Shown: in pieces, positions 23,869-29,476 of the stretch
Layout: the number at the start of each line of letters is the position of its first letter
Numbering within the stretch: the stretch's first letter is position 1
DNA from: an uncultured Ralstonia sp.
GTDB taxonomy: Bacteria; Pseudomonadota; Gammaproteobacteria; Burkholderiales; Burkholderiaceae
Direction of reading: 5' to 3'
NCBI GenBank assembly: GCA_913056305.1
Contig: CAJXMR010000033.1
Coordinates: 1-35,789, forward strand
DNA length: 35,789 nt
Translations under genes and position numbers: made by a program
The notes under the pieces: model-generated
Told to the model about the DNA's origin: nothing
Seen by the model: only the letters and a program-made list of their open reading frames with translations
The model's database searches: none

Positions 23869-25227
23869 ATGCTGGAGCAAGATGGACATCCCGCCGGGGT
23901 GCCGCGCAGCCGCATGCTGTCACTGCGCTCGACGCCCGCCGAGCTCGCGGCCGGTGGCCTGGCCATCGGGCTGCTGTGCGTGGCGGCCACCTGGTTTGCT
24001 GTTGCGATCGCCCCCGGCATCAGGGTCGCGGGGATGCTGCTGCTGGCCGTTGCCAGCGTCGCCGCGGCGCTGGCGCTGGTCTTCTATTGGCTGCGCCTGC
24101 GCATGCTGCGCGCCACCGTGGTGGACTATCTCGCCTATCTGGAGAAGAGCGAGGCGCGGCTGGCCGGCATCATCCGCTCGTCCATGGAGGCCATCATCTC
24201 GGTGGATGACCAGCAACGCATCGTGCTGTTCAACCCCATGGCCGAAACCCTGTTCGGCTGCCCGGCAAGCTTCGCGATCGGGCGGTCGTTGAACGATTTC
24301 ATTCCGCAGCGCTTTCGCACCGGGCATGAGGCGCATGTGCGCCGCTTTGGCGTGACGGGCGTGTCGGAGCGGCAGATGGGCAAGCAGCGCGCGCTGTTTG
24401 CCCTGCATACCGATGGGCGCGAATTCCCCATCGAGGCATCGATCTCGCAGGTGGATATCGGCGGCAGCAAGCTGTTCACCGTCATGCTGCGCGACACCAC
24501 CGAGCGCGTACGCGCCGAAGCCGCGCTGCGCCGCTCGCAGGAGGAGTTGCAGCATCTGTCGGCCAGCGTGCTGGCGACGCGGGAGGAGGAGCGCTACCGC
24601 ATCGCGCGCGAGCTGCACGACGATCTCGGCCAGCGCCTGAGCGCGCTCAAGATGGACCTGACCCTGTTGGCAACCGACCTGGACGCAACCGGTACGTCAG
24701 CCGAGCTGCTGGAGCGCACCGCCGCCATGCAGCGCGTGATCGACGATACGGTGGCGGCCGTGCGGCAGATCTCCGCCGACCTGCGCCCGCCCTTGTTGGA
24801 TGAGTTGGGCCTGGTACCCGCCATCGAGTGGATCGCCAAAGATTTCCGGCGGCGCTTCGGGTTGATCGTCAGCGTGCACGCGCAGGAGGAGGAAGTGGTG
24901 GGCGAGCATGCGGCCATTTCGGTTTTCCGCATCGTGCAGGAAGCCTTGAACAACGTGGTGCGGCACGCCGATGCCAGCCGTGTCGAGATCGAATTCGCAC
25001 GCACCGACGGGTTCTTCGAGCTGAGCATCCAGGACAACGGCCGTGGCTGGAGTGGTGCGCCACCGGCACCGGGCGAGCGCAAACCGCTGGGCCTGCTGGG
25101 CATTCGCGAACGCGCACGGTTGCTGGGCGGGCAGGCCGCCACGACGCATACGCCGCTGCAGGGGTTCCGCCTCTCGGTGCGCTTTCCTGCCGCAAGCGAT
25201 GCTGGGGCATCGGAGGTGCAGTCATGA
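23869..25227 (+). CDS. PAS-domain sensor histidine kinase (NarX/HisKA_3 type)
   Basis: A 452-residue kinase. Two transmembrane segments (about 22-45 and 50-72) are joined by a very short loop, so there is almost no periplasmic sensor. A PAS domain follows (about 90-205), starting IIRSSMEAIISVDD. The HisKA_3 dimerisation helix has His250 in ARELHDDLGQRLSALK, and the HATPase domain has VQEALNNVVRHA and DNGRGW. The signal is therefore probably cytoplasmic. ATG 23869 has GGAG at 23857-23860, 8 bases upstream; starts at 23818/23821 lack one. The stop overlaps a 7-codon mini-frame that links it to the response regulator gene. Confidence 0.9.
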   Translation: MLEQDGHPAGVPRSRMLSLRSTPAELAAGGLAIGLLCVAATWFAVAIAPGIRVAGMLLLAVASVAAALALVFYWLRLRMLRATVVDYLAYLEKSEARLAGIIRSSMEAIISVDDQQRIVLFNPMAETLFGCPASFAIGRSLNDFIPQRFRTGHEAHVRRFGVTGVSERQMGKQRALFALHTDGREFPIEASISQVDIGGSKLFTVMLRDTTERVRAEAALRRSQEELQHLSASVLATREEERYRIARELHDDLGQRLSALKMDLTLLATDLDATGTSAELLERTAAMQRVIDDTVAAVRQISADLRPPLLDELGLVPAIEWIAKDFRRRFGLIVSVHAQEEEVVGEHAAISVFRIVQEALNNVVRHADASRVEIEFARTDGFFELSIQDNGRGWSGAPPAPGERKPLGLLGIRERARLLGGQAATTHTPLQGFRLSVRFPAASDAGASEVQS

Positions 25228-25250
25228 TCCAGGAGGTGCAGCCATGATCC
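25211..25250 (+). repeat. 20-bp tandem duplication at the kinase/regulator junction
   Basis: Copies at 25211-25230 and 25231-25250 are 18/20 identical; each holds GGAGGTGCAG and CATGATCC, that is, a ribosome site and a start codon. The first copy's ATG (25224) overlaps the kinase stop (25225-25227) and opens a 7-codon frame whose TGA (25245-25247) overlaps the regulator's ATG (25244). Confidence 0.9.
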
Positions 25251-25891
25251 GGGTGATGATCGCCGACGACCATGCGGTCATGCGCGACGGCGTGCGGCAT
25301 ATCCTGGAGCGTGCCGGCAACTTCGAGGTCGTCTGCGAAGCCTCCGACGGCACGCAGGTGATCCAGCTGGTGCGCGAGCACAGCCCGCAGGTGGTGGTGC
25401 TGGATCTGTCGATGCCCGGGCGCAGTGGTCTGGACCTGGTCCGCCAGTTGCACGCCGATCATCCATCCGTGCGGGTGCTGGTGCTGACCATGCATGCGGA
25501 AGAACAATATGTGGCCCGGGCCTTCCGGGCAGGGGCCGCCGCCTACCTCACCAAGGAGAGCGCCGCGACCGAGCTGGTGGCGGCGCTCACGAAGGTCGCG
25601 CAGGGCGGTACCTATGTCAGCCCCGCCATGGCCGAAAAGCTCGCGCACAGCCTGCATGAAGACAGCGCGAATGCCGCCCACACCAAGCTGTCCGACCGCG
25701 AGATGGAGGTCTACCGGCGCCTGGTGCGCGGCGAGCCGCTCACCGAGATCGCCAGCAGCCTGTGCGTGAGCGCCAAGACCGTCAGCACCTACAAGATGCG
25801 GCTGATGACCAAGCTGCAGCTGCCCAGCGAGGCTGCGCTGGTGCGCTACGCGATCCGCAATCAACTGTTCCCGGATGACGACGCGCTGTAG
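25244..25891 (+). CDS. NarL/FixJ-type response regulator
   Basis: A 215-residue two-domain regulator. The receiver has the acidic pair Asp8-Asp9, the phospho-acceptor Asp54 in VVVLDLSMPG, and a conserved Lys in YLTKES near 104. The LuxR-type helix-turn-helix is at about 150-205: LSDREMEVYRRLVRGEPLTE then VSAKTVSTYKMRLM. It should be phosphorylated by the kinase encoded upstream. AGGAGG at 25231-25236 lies 7 bases before ATG 25244. It ends the island and faces the convergent LuxR-type gene at 26007. Confidence 0.93.
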   Translation: MIRVMIADDHAVMRDGVRHILERAGNFEVVCEASDGTQVIQLVREHSPQVVVLDLSMPGRSGLDLVRQLHADHPSVRVLVLTMHAEEQYVARAFRAGAAAYLTKESAATELVAALTKVAQGGTYVSPAMAEKLAHSLHEDSANAAHTKLSDREMEVYRRLVRGEPLTEIASSLCVSAKTVSTYKMRLMTKLQLPSEAALVRYAIRNQLFPDDDAL

Positions 25892-26010
25892 CGGCGTCCG
25901 CGCAGCCAACGGGCGATCTTTCGGCAGGCTGCGGGCCACGACGGACGCGTCGGCCAAACCAGCACGCCGTTGCGCGAGCGTGGCGTAACGTGCCGCCCAT
26001 GTGCCGCTAC
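25888..26010. terminator. Nested inverted repeats between convergent regulator genes
   Basis: Outer arms GTAGCGGC (25888-25895) and GCCGCTAC (26003-26010) each contain one gene's stop codon. Inside are GCGTCCG (25894-25900) / CGGACGC (25942-25948) and GCAGCC (25902-25907) / GGCTGC (25927-25932). The inner pairs form one imperfect stem-loop of about 55 bases, likely a bidirectional transcript end without T-run. Confidence 0.4.
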
Positions 26011-26666
26011 ATCATGCAGACCTGCAGCTTGGCGATGCCAGACTTGCAACGCGACAGCCATAGCGCCGCCTCCGTGCGATTGCTCACGCCAATCTGCCGA
26101 AATAACGCATATAGGTGATTCTTGATCGTGCCCTCGGCCACGTTCAGCACGCGGCAGATCTGCTTGTTCGATTTGCCCTCTGCAAGCAGTTGCAACACCT
26201 CGTGCTGACGTGGTGTGAGTCGGCGCCAGACTTCGACGGGGTGCTCACCCTCGGGCTGCCCCGGCTCATCCGCAGAGAGATTGCAGATCGGGGGCAGGTA
26301 CACCGCACCGGAGGTAATGCGCTGTAATGCCTCGAGCAGGACAGCGGCCGTGGCCTGGCGGTCGACCACCCCCGCCGCGCCAAACCGCAGCGCGTCGCCC
26401 ACCACGTGCCGCCCCACCAGTTGCACCGTCAGCAGCACCGGCACCTCCGGCAAGACGGCCTTCACCTCCGACAGCCGCCGGCGAGCCTCGCCGTCCTGCG
26501 CACTCCATTCCATGACCACCGCGCTGGGCCCTACCTGCCGGCAGGTCAAGCCAATGCCCTCCGGATCATGCGTGTCGAAAAACACGCCGTGTGCATCGAG
26601 GGCGTGCAATACATTGGAAACACCTGCCGCAAAAAGCGGAAGGCTATCGATTACCAGGATATTCAT
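26007..26666 (-). CDS. LuxR-type regulator with degenerate receiver domain
   Basis: A 219-residue protein with the NarL layout. The C-terminal helix-turn-helix is intact (LTPRQHEVLQLLAEGKSNKQ near 150, VAEGTIKNHLYALF near 180). The receiver is altered: at the phospho-acceptor position it has Glu53 (VVMEWS), the usual acidic pair is reduced to Asp7-Ser8, and the conserved Lys after GAAG is missing (GAAGVVDRQ). It probably works without phosphorylation. GAGGGG lies 5 bases before ATG 26666 on the minus strand. It diverges from the DUF2589 operon, with an 18-bp palindrome between them, and is the likely regulator of that operon. Confidence 0.88.
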   Translation of the reverse strand: MNILVIDSLPLFAAGVSNVLHALDAHGVFFDTHDPEGIGLTCRQVGPSAVVMEWSAQDGEARRRLSEVKAVLPEVPVLLTVQLVGRHVVGDALRFGAAGVVDRQATAAVLLEALQRITSGAVYLPPICNLSADEPGQPEGEHPVEVWRRLTPRQHEVLQLLAEGKSNKQICRVLNVAEGTIKNHLYALFRQIGVSNRTEAALWLSRCKSGIAKLQVCMM

Positions 26667-26917
26667 CGACCCCTCATACTTCAGTTAATTATTCTGTTGG
26701 TCAATCCGATTCTTTTTTAGGGCGCGCGCAACCCGAGCGCAGGAAAACGGAAGGCCAGTGTCAAAAGTAATAGGGCGTCGCGAGGGGTGGTATTGGGCCC
26801 ATTACCCATGGCCTCGATTGGCACTTTTGCGGCATCGAAGGCGGCAGTCAAAACCCTTACCTTGAATTCCGGCGCACAACCCGGTGCGTCCTGAAAAATC
26901 AAAGTAAGGAGTTTTAA
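26667..26917. promoter_or_regulatory. Divergent regulatory region of the DUF2589 module
   Basis: This 251-bp spacer has less GC than its surroundings, with AT-rich DNA at 26680-26720. It contains an 18-bp palindrome at 26789-26806 (GGTA-T-TGGGCCCA-T-TACC) with a single mismatched pair, about midway between the two starts and a natural operator for the divergent LuxR-type protein. Further right, CGCAC/GTGCG arms (26872-26888 region) form a small hairpin. The ribosome site TAAGGAG at 26905-26911, 6 bases before ATG 26918, is a perfect match to the anti-Shine-Dalgarno, so high translation is expected. Confidence 0.65.
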
Positions 26918-27586
26918 ATGGACAATGGATTGATCGGATCGGTTATCAACGCATTGCCGATCGACAAGATGATCTCGGCCCCGCTGCAAGCCATGATTCA
27001 GGCGCAGACGTCGGCAGCGAAATCGTATGCGGATTTCCTGCTGCAAGTCTGTATTCAGGATGGCAAGGCGGTGGCGGTGCAGTTCGACTACGACGAAACA
27101 CTGGTCGACGAGCAGGGCGTGTCGCAGGGCACGATCCAGAAGACGATGCGCATTCCGCTGCTGTGTGCCGTCGTGCATCCGGTGATCGCCATCGAAGAAG
27201 GCACGATCGATTTCGAGCTCGAGATCTCGCAGTCGGAGAAGTCGTCGTCCACCACCGAGGCCGAAGGGTCGTTCCAGGCCAAGCTGGGCTGGGGCCCGTT
27301 CAGCGTGTCGGTGTCGGGCCGCGCCTCGCACAAGTCGGAGCAGACGCGCAGCACCGATACGCGCGCCAAGTACTCCTTCCACACCCAGGTCAAGCGCCAG
27401 AACCCGCCGGAAGCGCTGATGCGCGTCATGGAATTCCTGACCAACGCCGCCACCAAGCCGGTGGTCGTCAAGGGCAAGGAGAACGAGGTCAAGCCGCTGC
27501 CGGCCACGCCCACCGACGGCTCGATGATCGGCGAGAAGAAGGCCGGCGGCAACGCCCCGGCCCCGGCCCCGGCGGCGACGACGTAA
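26918..27586 (+). CDS. DUF2589 domain protein, first copy
   Basis: A 222-residue protein without signal peptide. The N-terminal part is helical (IDKMISAPLQAMIQAQTSAA). The middle is beta-rich: RIPLLCAVVHPVIAIEE, then FELEISQSEKSSSTTEAEG and LGWGPFSVSVSGRASHKSE, an alternating Ser/Thr pattern. The conserved NPPEALMRVMEFL lies near residue 165 and a Pro/Ala-rich tail ends the chain. This fits DUF2589, a family of unknown function that often occurs as neighbouring paralogues. The excellent ribosome site suggests an abundant, perhaps structural, protein. It is followed by a hairpin and the second copy. Confidence 0.85.
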   Translation: MDNGLIGSVINALPIDKMISAPLQAMIQAQTSAAKSYADFLLQVCIQDGKAVAVQFDYDETLVDEQGVSQGTIQKTMRIPLLCAVVHPVIAIEEGTIDFELEISQSEKSSSTTEAEGSFQAKLGWGPFSVSVSGRASHKSEQTRSTDTRAKYSFHTQVKRQNPPEALMRVMEFLTNAATKPVVVKGKENEVKPLPATPTDGSMIGEKKAGGNAPAPAPAATT

Positions 27587-27604
27587 GTCGCGCGTGGTTG
27601 AACG

Positions 27605-27637
27605 GGCGCCGGCCTGTCCTCCCCCAAAGCCGGCGCC
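27605..27637 (+). terminator. Hairpin between the two DUF2589 genes
   Basis: GGCGCCGGC (27605-27613) and GCCGGCGCC (27629-27637) form a perfect 9-bp stem with a C-rich 15-base loop, in the 98-bp gap. No T-run follows. It may partly end transcription or protect the upstream message, so the first copy is made in excess of the genes behind it. Confidence 0.45.
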
Positions 27638-27684
27638 TCGCACTGCGTTTTTCCGACGACCTCTGACTCGACCGACGAGACACC

Positions 27685-28473
27685 ATGTCCAAGCTCTTCA
27701 GCCGCTGGCGCCGCCAGGACGACGGCGCGGCGTTGCCGCCAGCACAGACCCCGCGCGATGGCGCATCGGCCTCTGCTTCGTCCAGCCCAACCTCCGCCGC
27801 TGCCGCGCAGTCGCCACCGGCGGCCGGCGCGGCGCCGTCCGCTGAGCCCGCCGCAGATGCGTCGGCAGCAAGCCCGCCTCCGACCACGCCGCCGGGCGGC
27901 AGCGGCGGCAGTGGGGGTGGCGGTGGCGGTGGCAGTGGCGGTGGCAGTGGCGGCCATGACCATCCGGCCATCGCGGGGCTCACGCTCGACGACATCACGC
28001 GCGGCATGCAGCACGCGGCGGCGGCGGCCAACCAGATGCTGGCGCAGCAGTACACCACGCTGCTCGACCAGTTCTTCGATGCCGACGAGGCGGGCACGTT
28101 GGTTGCCCGCGAGGTGGAGCTGGCACTCGATACGCAGCACCGGCTCGCGTTGCCGCTGGTGTCGCTGGCCATGCCGCGCGGCCTCGCGCTGGAGGAGATG
28201 ACCGTGAACATGACCGTGCGCAGCGACCTGGCCGAAGCGCTGCCGGCGGAAGGCACGGGCGCAGGTGGGGTGGGCAGGTTCTACGTCTCGCTGGCGCCGC
28301 ACTCCAGCCGCGAGGCCGGCCGTGACAGCGAGCACATCGACATCCAGATGAAGTTCAGCGCGCTGCAACCGCCCGAAGCGGTGATGCGCCTGATCGACGA
28401 ATACACCAACCGGATGGTGCCGCGCCCACTGCCGCAAGCCAAGCCTGGCGCCGAGGAGACCGCCGATGCTTAA
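27685..28473 (+). CDS. DUF2589-like protein, second copy, with Gly/Ser linker
   Basis: A 262-residue protein. Residues 1-70 are basic, then Ala/Pro/Ser-rich and probably disordered. Residues about 71-92 are a Gly/Ser linker followed by HDHP. The rest aligns by eye with the first copy: HRLALPLVSLAMPRGLALEE against its RIPLLCAVVHPVIAIEE, and LQPPEAVMRLIDEYTNRM against NPPEALMRVMEFLTNAA. It lacks the Ser/Thr-rich SVSVSG stretch. No signal peptide. It overlaps the lysozyme gene by 8 bases, so the two are translationally linked. Function unknown; probably a partner of the first copy. Confidence 0.75.
   Translation: MSKLFSRWRRQDDGAALPPAQTPRDGASASASSSPTSAAAAQSPPAAGAAPSAEPAADASAASPPPTTPPGGSGGSGGGGGGGSGGGSGGHDHPAIAGLTLDDITRGMQHAAAAANQMLAQQYTTLLDQFFDADEAGTLVAREVELALDTQHRLALPLVSLAMPRGLALEEMTVNMTVRSDLAEALPAEGTGAGGVGRFYVSLAPHSSREAGRDSEHIDIQMKFSALQPPEAVMRLIDEYTNRMVPRPLPQAKPGAEETADA
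27895..27954 (+). repeat. GGC/GGT/AGT triplet tract coding for a Gly/Ser linker
   Basis: About 60 bases of GGC, GGT, GGG and AGC/AGT triplets, including two adjacent copies of a 12-base unit (GGCGGTGGCAGT). The tract could change length by slippage without breaking the frame. Confidence 0.8.
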
Positions 28474-28930
28474 CGAACGCGGTAGCGAGAACAACCCGCG
28501 CGCCACCGGCGAGCAGGGCGTCGCGCTGATCAAGGAATCGGAGGGGCTGCGCCTGTCGACCTATCTGGATGCGGTGGGCAAGCCGACCATCGGCTATGGC
28601 CACCTGATCCTGCCCCGCGAAACCTTCAATGGGCCGATCTCGCAGGCCCGGGCCGAGGCGCTGCTGCGCAAGGACTTGCACGACACCGAGCAGGCCATCA
28701 CGCGGGCCGTGCGTGTGCCGATCACGCAGGCGCAATTCGATGCGCTGGCGTCGTTCGTCTTCAACCTGGGGGCGGGGCGGCTGCGCTCATCGACGCTGCT
28801 ACGCAAGCTCAACGCCGGTGACTACGCCGGTGCGGCCCAGCAATTCCTACTATGGGACAAGGCCGGCGGCAAACCGCTCAAGGGCCTGACCAAGCGCCGG
28901 CAGGCCGAGCGCAAGCTGTTCCTTTCCTAA
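28466..28930 (+). CDS. GH24 phage-type lysozyme
   Basis: A 154-residue muramidase of the T4/P22 type. The catalytic triad is visible: Glu in KESEGLRL near residue 26, Asp in YLDAVG near 35, and Thr in TIGYGH near 41. The FVFNLGAGRL segment near 94 and the C-terminal RRQAERKLFL match the family. It cleaves the glycan strands of peptidoglycan. No signal peptide or SAR-type transmembrane segment is present, so it needs another route across the membrane or acts after lysis. ATG 28466 lies inside the end of the second DUF2589 gene. No other phage gene is nearby. Confidence 0.92.
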   Translation: MLNERGSENNPRATGEQGVALIKESEGLRLSTYLDAVGKPTIGYGHLILPRETFNGPISQARAEALLRKDLHDTEQAITRAVRVPITQAQFDALASFVFNLGAGRLRSSTLLRKLNAGDYAGAAQQFLLWDKAGGKPLKGLTKRRQAERKLFLS

Positions 28931-28969
28931 CCGAAGCACACCACGACGTTGTCTAACCGGAGAATCTGT

Positions 28970-29476
28970 ATGCGTACTGAACCGATGTCCGTGATCCCCA
29001 CCGTTGCCCCGCGCCGGCTGCATCGTGCGCTGATCTGGACGGCGGCCGCCGTCATTGTCATTGGCGTGTCATACGCCCGCGCCGATGATGCCCGGCCGAC
29101 CTGCGCGGCCGAAGCCGCGCGCATTGACGCCGAGCTTAACCGGCTGGAGCTACCGCGGTTCAATGACCAGGCTGGGCGCTATCTGGCCGAGACGCTGAAC
29201 CAGCTCTACACCTATGGCACGCTGCCCGATCGCTACGTGCCGGAGCGCGACGCCAACTGGCCCGCGGCGGAAAAGCGCCCGGTCATGATGCACAAGCGCA
29301 GCATCGGCGGCGACGCATGGACGCAGGCTAGCCTGCTGCAGGCGGACATCGATGACGGCCTCACCAAGCGCAGCCCGCTGCGCCTGATCTTTGACCTGGA
29401 CGGCAAGCCACAGTACGTCACCACCGTCGCTGCCAATGCGCCGCAGATCCCGACGCAGCGTTGCGCCGGCAAGTGA
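28970..29476 (+). CDS. Secreted protein of unknown function in the DUF2589 module
   Basis: A 168-residue protein. An N-terminal basic stretch and hydrophobic core (LIWTAAAVIVIGVSYA) give a signal peptide with cleavage likely after ARA near residue 33. The mature part has two Cys (TCAAEA and QRCAGK at the very end), a helical acidic/basic middle (ARIDAELNRLELPRF), a Tyr-rich LNQLYTYGTLPDRYVPE, and a C-terminal LRLIFDLDGKPQYVTTV. I recognise no family. GGAGA at 28959-28963 lies 6 bases before ATG 28970, so the TTG at 28949 is not used. It follows the lysozyme gene by 39 bp and could be a periplasmic protector against it or a secreted partner; both are inference. Confidence 0.75.
   Translation: MRTEPMSVIPTVAPRRLHRALIWTAAAVIVIGVSYARADDARPTCAAEAARIDAELNRLELPRFNDQAGRYLAETLNQLYTYGTLPDRYVPERDANWPAAEKRPVMMHKRSIGGDAWTQASLLQADIDDGLTKRSPLRLIFDLDGKPQYVTTVAANAPQIPTQRCAGK

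Follow-up and report, generated by a model that had tools for sequence, protein, structure and literature searches.

A DUF2589 protein pair beside exchangeable wall hydrolases in a Ralstonia operon and related loci

Lytic cassettes outside phages and the window operon

Type 10 secretion uses sets of holin, endolysin, and spanin located outside phages, and releases proteins by lysis, as described in sections of PMC10847048. The operon analyzed here resembles the stand-alone lytic cassettes of that kind treated in the same sections (YenLC and SmaLC) in having a phage-type endolysin outside a phage together with its own regulator, and release by lysis, proposed there for the cassettes, is likewise proposed for it. 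It lies in a contig of an uncultured Ralstonia sp. (CAJXMR010000033.1; "the window" is the whole stretch of 35,789 nucleotides that was analyzed) and encodes two paralogues of the DUF2589 family (D1 and D2), a lysozyme, and a small exported protein. Our main new result is that, among loci with DUF2589, the wall hydrolase is swapped—i.e. GH24, GH19, GH108, CHAP, Amidase_3, or Pesticin—while the DUF2589 pair stays constant.

The window operon shares the endolysin with type 10 secretion, but has no holin in the cassette. Neither a holin nor a spanin is recognized there (no search was dedicated to spanins), and it carries instead the DUF2589 pair, the term DUF being absent from PMC10847048. With the holin–endolysin modules of phages it has in common the phage R-type lysozyme, and DUF2589 pairs also stand beside endolysins in viral contigs; D1 and D2 differ from holins in that they have no predicted membrane helix (D2 from 28006) and fall outside holin families. 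R-bodies (RebB) are also made of paralogues encoded in one operon, in the same bacterial family, but show no profile similarity to DUF2589 (hhalign probability 0.1 for D1 and D2 alike), and kinship with RebB was rejected. The features of the operon are as follows.

26007..26666, minus strand: divergent LuxR-type regulator with degenerate receiver (GerE 8.2e-18, no Response_reg match)
26789..26806, no strand: 18-nucleotide palindrome GGTATTGGGCCCATTACC in the gap between regulator and D1 (seen in the sequence; not found in relatives)
26918..27586, plus strand: D1, DUF2589 paralogue with long hairpin loop (PF11655 91.2 bits; structure models)
27266..27325, plus strand: D1 residues ~117–136, equivalent of the conserved candidate amphipathic hairpin (column statistics of 81 sequences; mapped by eye)
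27685..28473, plus strand: D2, second DUF2589 paralogue, with N-terminal tail rich in Gly, Pro, and Ala (PF11655 53.1 bits; related to D1 by profile, 98.5%)
28466..28930, plus strand: GH24 phage-type lysozyme without export signal, overlapping D2 by 8 nucleotides (PF00959 2.2e-45; phrog_7 endolysin 7e-59)
28970..29476, plus strand: exported protein of the barnase superfamily by homology, catalytic base and acid replaced (family profile A9 vs binase 5.7e-8; homologue at locus L249 1.1e-9; alignment)

A first-pass annotation of this DNA had listed five genes with their positions and strands, which the sequence and its open reading frames confirm. It had also described two DUF2589 paralogues, a lysozyme that starts within the second of them and has an intact catalytic triad and no export signal, a small exported protein, and a divergent LuxR-type pseudo-response regulator, and each of these descriptions held. 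All reading frames of the operon are open. Gene calls and start sites come from an in-house script, which begins the window's D2 late (28006). In the window's assembly, whose completeness is 88%, DUF2589 is matched twice and PF00959 once, each time within the window operon.

DUF2589 pairs and their wall hydrolases

From a collection of named genomes we kept the best 80 of 204 DUF2589 relatives, with genes called and clustered by an in-house script. These 80 named loci belong to another locus class than the window operon, and their hosts include Collimonas, Paraburkholderia, Massilia, Luteibacter, Xanthomonas, Pseudomonas, Desulfovibrio, Vibrio, Helicobacter, and Roseburia. Both D1 and D2 are found at 79 of the 80, and a further protein of ~88 residues, none of which is seen at the window, at 78. 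A hydrolase cluster lies within five genes of DUF2589 at 60 of the 80 loci, and it is GH19 at 30, GH108 at 20, GH24 at 6, and CHAP at 4. Together, the four clusters account for 60 of the 683 genes that are at most five genes away from DUF2589 vs 0 of the 407 farther away, a contrast that is not blind, as the clusters were picked since they had been seen near DUF2589, and that comes from related, not independent, loci; its Fisher significance is therefore overstated.

For a less redundant set (37 loci out of 93, below 72% D1 identity), the length filter removed one of the 192 near proteins, leaving 191, and 135 of 181 far proteins were submitted. Among the 191, Pfam recognizes GH108 (4), Phage_lysozyme (4, the window's included), GH19 (3), SLT (3), and Muramidase (1), to which single scans add Amidase_3 (L085), Pesticin (L083), and CHAP (L160). 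The SLT and Pesticin genes lie on the strand opposite to DUF2589. The Pfam and PHROGs neighbor tables hold the 25 commonest families only, so that single matches may have gone unlisted for the near sets as well as for the controls. An M15 peptidase match beside L088 is weak (E 0.31) and was not counted.

In the wider sampling, PF11655 was matched in 4 of 300 genomes for the order, 9 of 398 for the phylum, and 3 of 369 for the class, with the window's own genome counted in each case. In the bacterial family of the window, DUF2589 occurs in 26 of 200 genomes (the window's included), with two matches each. The neighborhoods of the other 25 were fetched and searched with the window proteins, and the set of D1, D2, and lysozyme is present in 22 of them. 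It is contiguous in 19; in G063, G106, and G122, D1 and D2–lysozyme stand at the ends of two contigs, which we left unjoined. The contig of G168 ends short of the lysozyme position, and G141 and G174 have only distant DUF2589 genes, with no lysozyme in the 19 kb fetched. These two genomes (L053/L054) encode a DUF2589 protein of ~436 residues, whose additional C-terminal region is immunoglobulin-like by eye, plus a second DUF2589 gene.

The first-pass annotation had proposed looking for DUF2589 beside wall hydrolases, and the two are found together at 60 of 80 named loci and in 22 of 25 family genomes. It had named two findings that would speak against its reading, i.e. pairs almost always without a lysozyme, and a lysozyme derived from a decayed prophage. 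Both were looked for, and neither was found in the genome samples. The association between DUF2589 and hydrolases is well supported, and we regard a functional tie between them as very probable.

A decayed prophage remnant is unlikely, because 22 of the 25 other DUF2589-bearing family genomes keep D1, D2, and lysozyme. More broadly, that the operon is a functionless relic of a prophage lysis region is highly improbable: the phage-type lysozyme and the presence of DUF2589 in viral contigs would suit such an origin, but gene order and overlap are kept over several genera, the window's reading frames are all open, and D1 is conserved above the neighboring RNase H gene. Specifically, mean identity over the best aligned segment in 11 own-genus loci is 95.2% for D1, the best conserved protein of the operon, 88.9% for the lysozyme, 81.4% for D2, and 72.4% for the exported protein, compared with 83.7% for the regulator (10 loci) and 89.3% for RNase H.

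Because DUF2589 is the constant part, the main rival to the release module that we favor below holds that DUF2589 (joined, in the other class, by the 88-residue protein) is itself the cargo—a particle, matrix, or toxin—and that the endolysin, with or without a holin, is the tool that releases it, as in type 10 secretion. We consider this somewhat unlikely. It would agree with a pair present at 79 of 80 named loci beside a variable hydrolase, with the top rank of D1 in operon conservation, with the extra regions that some members show by eye (the 436-residue protein and an insert in L088), and with an archaeon that has DUF2589 genes (part of PMC3949148). Phages, however, have virions to release and yet carry the pair beside endolysins, and secretion of the pair is hypothetical.

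Three scans of viral contigs return 233, 12, and 377 DUF2589 relatives, and 1 of 50,697 annotated phage records holds one. Neighbors were compared at 16 non-redundant loci of 80 viral ones; length excluded one of 135 near proteins, leaving 134, and 135 of 197 far proteins were sampled. Near the pair, 12 of the 25 commonest PHROGs are labeled endolysin and one hemolysin, counts in which one protein may match more than one of the families; in the far set, 0 of the 25 commonest carry either label. Three IMG/VR loci with chromosomal-looking flanks (L249–L251) carry GH24, D1, D2, and GH24 again, along with a protein homologous to the exported one and two small, hydrophobic ones, and L251 also has, by eye, a window-like regulator and an integrase-like gene. 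In the class-B viral contigs read (L252–L254 and L256–L260, several of them near-identical), D1 and D2 lie close to large portal-, protease-, and capsid-like genes, with PHROGs confirming a portal for L253 and, for L260, a virion structural protein. Neighbors of 188 and 201 residues in L252–L260 were considered as lysis proteins and rejected, as PHROGs gave no lysis match and Pfam none for the 201-residue protein; an Rz-like match (0.013) was below any threshold.

D1, D2, and a possible route for the lysozyme

The lysozyme is well above the PF00959 cut-off (154.4 bits vs 22.3) and is of the phage R type in PHROGs. It is up to 57% identical to phage lysozymes among the matches listed (e.g. Gifsy-2), and it matches 3,274 of the 50,697 phage records. 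Its Glu-Asp-Thr triad, read by eye, is intact at the spacing that we take to be that of T4 lysozyme. No membrane segment is predicted by the hydropathy scan, and no signal is visible. The ATG sits 8 nucleotides inside D2, and in 24 of 24 loci (window included) the GH24 gene adjoining D2 overlaps it by 8–20 nucleotides with an identical frame step, using the starts of the in-house gene caller. This constancy suggests that D2 and the lysozyme are translationally coupled. The scan also finds no membrane segment in D1 or in D2 from 28006, and no small multi-segment membrane protein in the window neighborhood, i.e. no holin adjoins the lysozyme. One L249-type query, the only one tried, gave no holin match elsewhere in the window's genome.

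D1 and D2 each score above the Pfam cut-off for DUF2589 (91.2 and 53.1 bits vs 23), and their kinship is apparent by profile comparison (98.5%, E 3.3e-15). The first-pass annotation knew of no described function for this arrangement. The open-licence literature searched bears this out in part: PF11655 is unmentioned there, and DUF2589 is mentioned in one paper, which concerns an Archaeoglobus gene region up-regulated on lactate (part of PMC3949148). The predicted model of the window's D1 is modest (predicted local distance difference test, pLDDT, 62). That of L155, a compact D1 homologue, reaches 74.5 overall and 90–96 at residues 21–90, and its core fold is predicted with confidence: one long helix and four strands, then a helix at the C-terminus, with a loop (109–147, modeled without confidence) that joins the two longest strands. 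In the alignment of 81 sequences, columns 121, 123, 125, 128, 130, 132, 134, and 138 of the D1 loop are 81–100% hydrophobic (Ala included) and the intervening columns at most 28%, while Ser and Thr make up 27% of the loop vs 13% elsewhere. Such a pattern could be that of an amphipathic hairpin with potential for membrane insertion.

Aerolysin-like beta-pore-forming proteins are a natural class for comparison. D1 shares with beta-pore-forming proteins a Ser/Thr-rich loop and a putative amphipathic hairpin between two long strands, but the searches made returned no sequence or fold match to them, and no signal peptide is visible. Holins are a second class, and D1 and D2 belong to no PHROGs holin family and, with D2 scanned from 28006, have no predicted transmembrane helices, which holins possess.

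A signal-less endolysin acts only after it has crossed the inner membrane, and in phages the holin sees to this. We propose that the window operon is a stand-alone lysis or release module outside any recognized prophage. The lysozyme, a phage-type endolysin that lacks a signal, would be made in the cytoplasm, and the DUF2589 heteropair would be its partner, as D1 and D2 precede the lysozyme, whose start overlaps D2. D1 together with D2 may assemble at the inner membrane, where the amphipathic hairpin of D1 would insert and form a pore; this would give the endolysin access to the wall, replacing or helping a holin. In this way some cells would undergo regulated lysis, or the envelope would be opened, with release of cytoplasmic content. 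Three features lead us to favor such a module: the lack of an adjacent holin, the overlap of the enzyme's start with D2, and the hairpin of D1 as a candidate for insertion. We regard DUF2589 perforating the membrane or helping a holin as possible rather than probable. The wider proposal, that DUF2589 pairs form a class of holin-like machines without transmembrane helices, which open hairpin pores from the cytoplasmic side for interchangeable endolysins in phages and chromosomal cassettes, is doubtful.

Several observations weigh against this module. The alternating D1 columns would also be expected of an ordinary sheet in which one face is buried, fold searches with D1 against solved structures gave no match, and DUF2589 genes are present in an archaeon (Archaeoglobus, part of PMC3949148). 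At the loci themselves, 20 of the 80 named ones have none of the four hydrolase clusters nearby, no endolysin was recognized beside D1 and D2 in the class-B viral contigs read, and the general reading of the window, without a dedicated search, recognized no spanin-like gene. The far control of the 37-locus set had GH19 in 2 of 135 proteins, one of them an L128 gene further down the same gene run and the other probably an L117 gene. A holin family (phrog_2359) is matched at 4.8e-13 in one other-class locus tested, and its cluster and two more holin-like clusters occur near 17 of the 80 named loci. These genes speak for a lysis module, but where they occur DUF2589 would be redundant as a pore.

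These holin-like genes bear on another explanation, in which DUF2589 controls the endolysin in the cytoplasm as a chaperone, timer, or adaptor, makes no pore, and leaves the crossing to a holin or to c18, a membrane protein with about three segments. The overlap of D2 and the lysozyme start is in keeping with it, as are the 17 loci with holin-like clusters, the presence of c18 near 10 of the 80 named loci, and a 73% identical c18 homologue elsewhere in the window's genome. It leaves the conserved D1 hairpin without a role, however, and at many loci a membrane gene of this kind is missing from the neighborhood; we judge it improbable.

Should the pair carry endolysins through the inner membrane, it would stand in for a holin while lacking transmembrane helices, it would account for signal-less lysozymes that act in operons with no adjacent holin, and DUF2589 would mark many unrecognized release cassettes in genomes. 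The family is widespread and has no assigned function. Its link with endolysins, in phages as well as in bacterial chromosomes, now suggests a role open to testing, possibly as a hitherto undescribed part of controlled lysis or of the release of wall hydrolases.

The exported protein, the regulator, and other partners

The hydropathy scan places one membrane segment at the start of the exported protein. Its L249 homologue matches binase (1.1e-9), as does the profile of the ten-member family (A9; 5.7e-8). The window protein by itself has no binase match and is linked to the enzyme through L249, with 28% identity in alignment A9. The general base and acid of binase, presumably a Glu and a His, are replaced by Gln and Ala in the window and by Ser and Asn in L249. 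By homology, the protein is therefore an exported member of the barnase superfamily, related by profile to barnase and binase but probably not an active ribonuclease; the first-pass annotation had not noticed this kinship. It may serve as a periplasmic binding partner or regulator in the release module, and the loss of two catalytic residues is compatible with a role as protector without being proof of one. The profile matches 11 of 11 own-genus relatives and, in genus g25, 4 of 5 genomes, some of the loci having themselves contributed to the profile; the loci of g12 and g21 gave no match. In one own-genus genome the gene is broken across two reading frames (L035, 7076–7584).

In the other locus class, 31 of the 80 named loci have different small exported proteins, in two clusters. 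They bear on a reading in which the hydrolases are effectors used on neighbors by contact or release, DUF2589 is their carrier, and the exported protein provides immunity. Besides the exported proteins near many pairs (31 of 80), a Pesticin family adjoining one pair and a Tle1-like phospholipase family in the near set (L085) would suit a weapon. No delivery apparatus was recognized in the neighborhoods read, however, phages carry the pair, and the exported proteins differ between locus classes; such a use is hardly probable. At L085 (9576–13012), Amidase_3 and the Tle1-like phospholipase both lie downstream of the DUF2589 genes.

The regulator has a LuxR-type DNA-binding domain that is GerE-positive, and Pfam Response_reg is unmatched. 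Compared with an intact neighboring regulator, its receiver has Glu for the phospho-acceptor Asp, Arg for the Lys, and Ser for the second acid in 24 of 24 aligned copies (window included), which suggests that it is not a phosphorylatable response regulator. The palindrome across which it diverges according to the first-pass annotation does exist, but its conservation is not borne out: a pattern search of the other loci, of which 22 include the gap between regulator and D1, did not return GGTATTGGGCCCATTACC from any of them, and it is therefore not a conserved operator. Just upstream of the pseudo-regulator (23869–25891) lie an intact-looking PAS histidine kinase and a NarL-type response regulator.

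The operon is frequently extended in the family's other genera, with c18 upstream and, downstream, an esterase (PHB-depolymerase 20.4 bits, below the cut-off of 23) and a Phasin_2 protein (25.8 bits, cut-off 24.9). The c18 gene near 10 of the 80 named loci and esterase or phasin clusters near 8 of them indicate that the two locus classes share partners. Esterase and phasin-like protein accompany DUF2589 in both operon classes (L096–L105 and L158; L031 and L044–L060), in different gene orders. Up to three 205-residue paralogues (c4), with no Pfam or Protein Data Bank match, lie downstream of the lysozyme operon at L031, L045, L050–L052, L055, L056, and L058–L060. In the window's genome, one phasin, one esterase, and one 205-residue query gave no match; the 73% identical c18 lies away from the window, next to another membrane gene (L362, G000:C162, 6392–7315).

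A third arrangement is seen at L081, L084, and L088, where D1 is followed by two conserved proteins of ~220 and ~195 residues in place of a recognized D2; the DUF2589 member of L088 has, by eye, an inserted stretch. At L079 (1870–7041), a very long protein adjoins a DUF2589–GH19 cluster, and its N-terminus resembles by eye what we take to be DUF4157.

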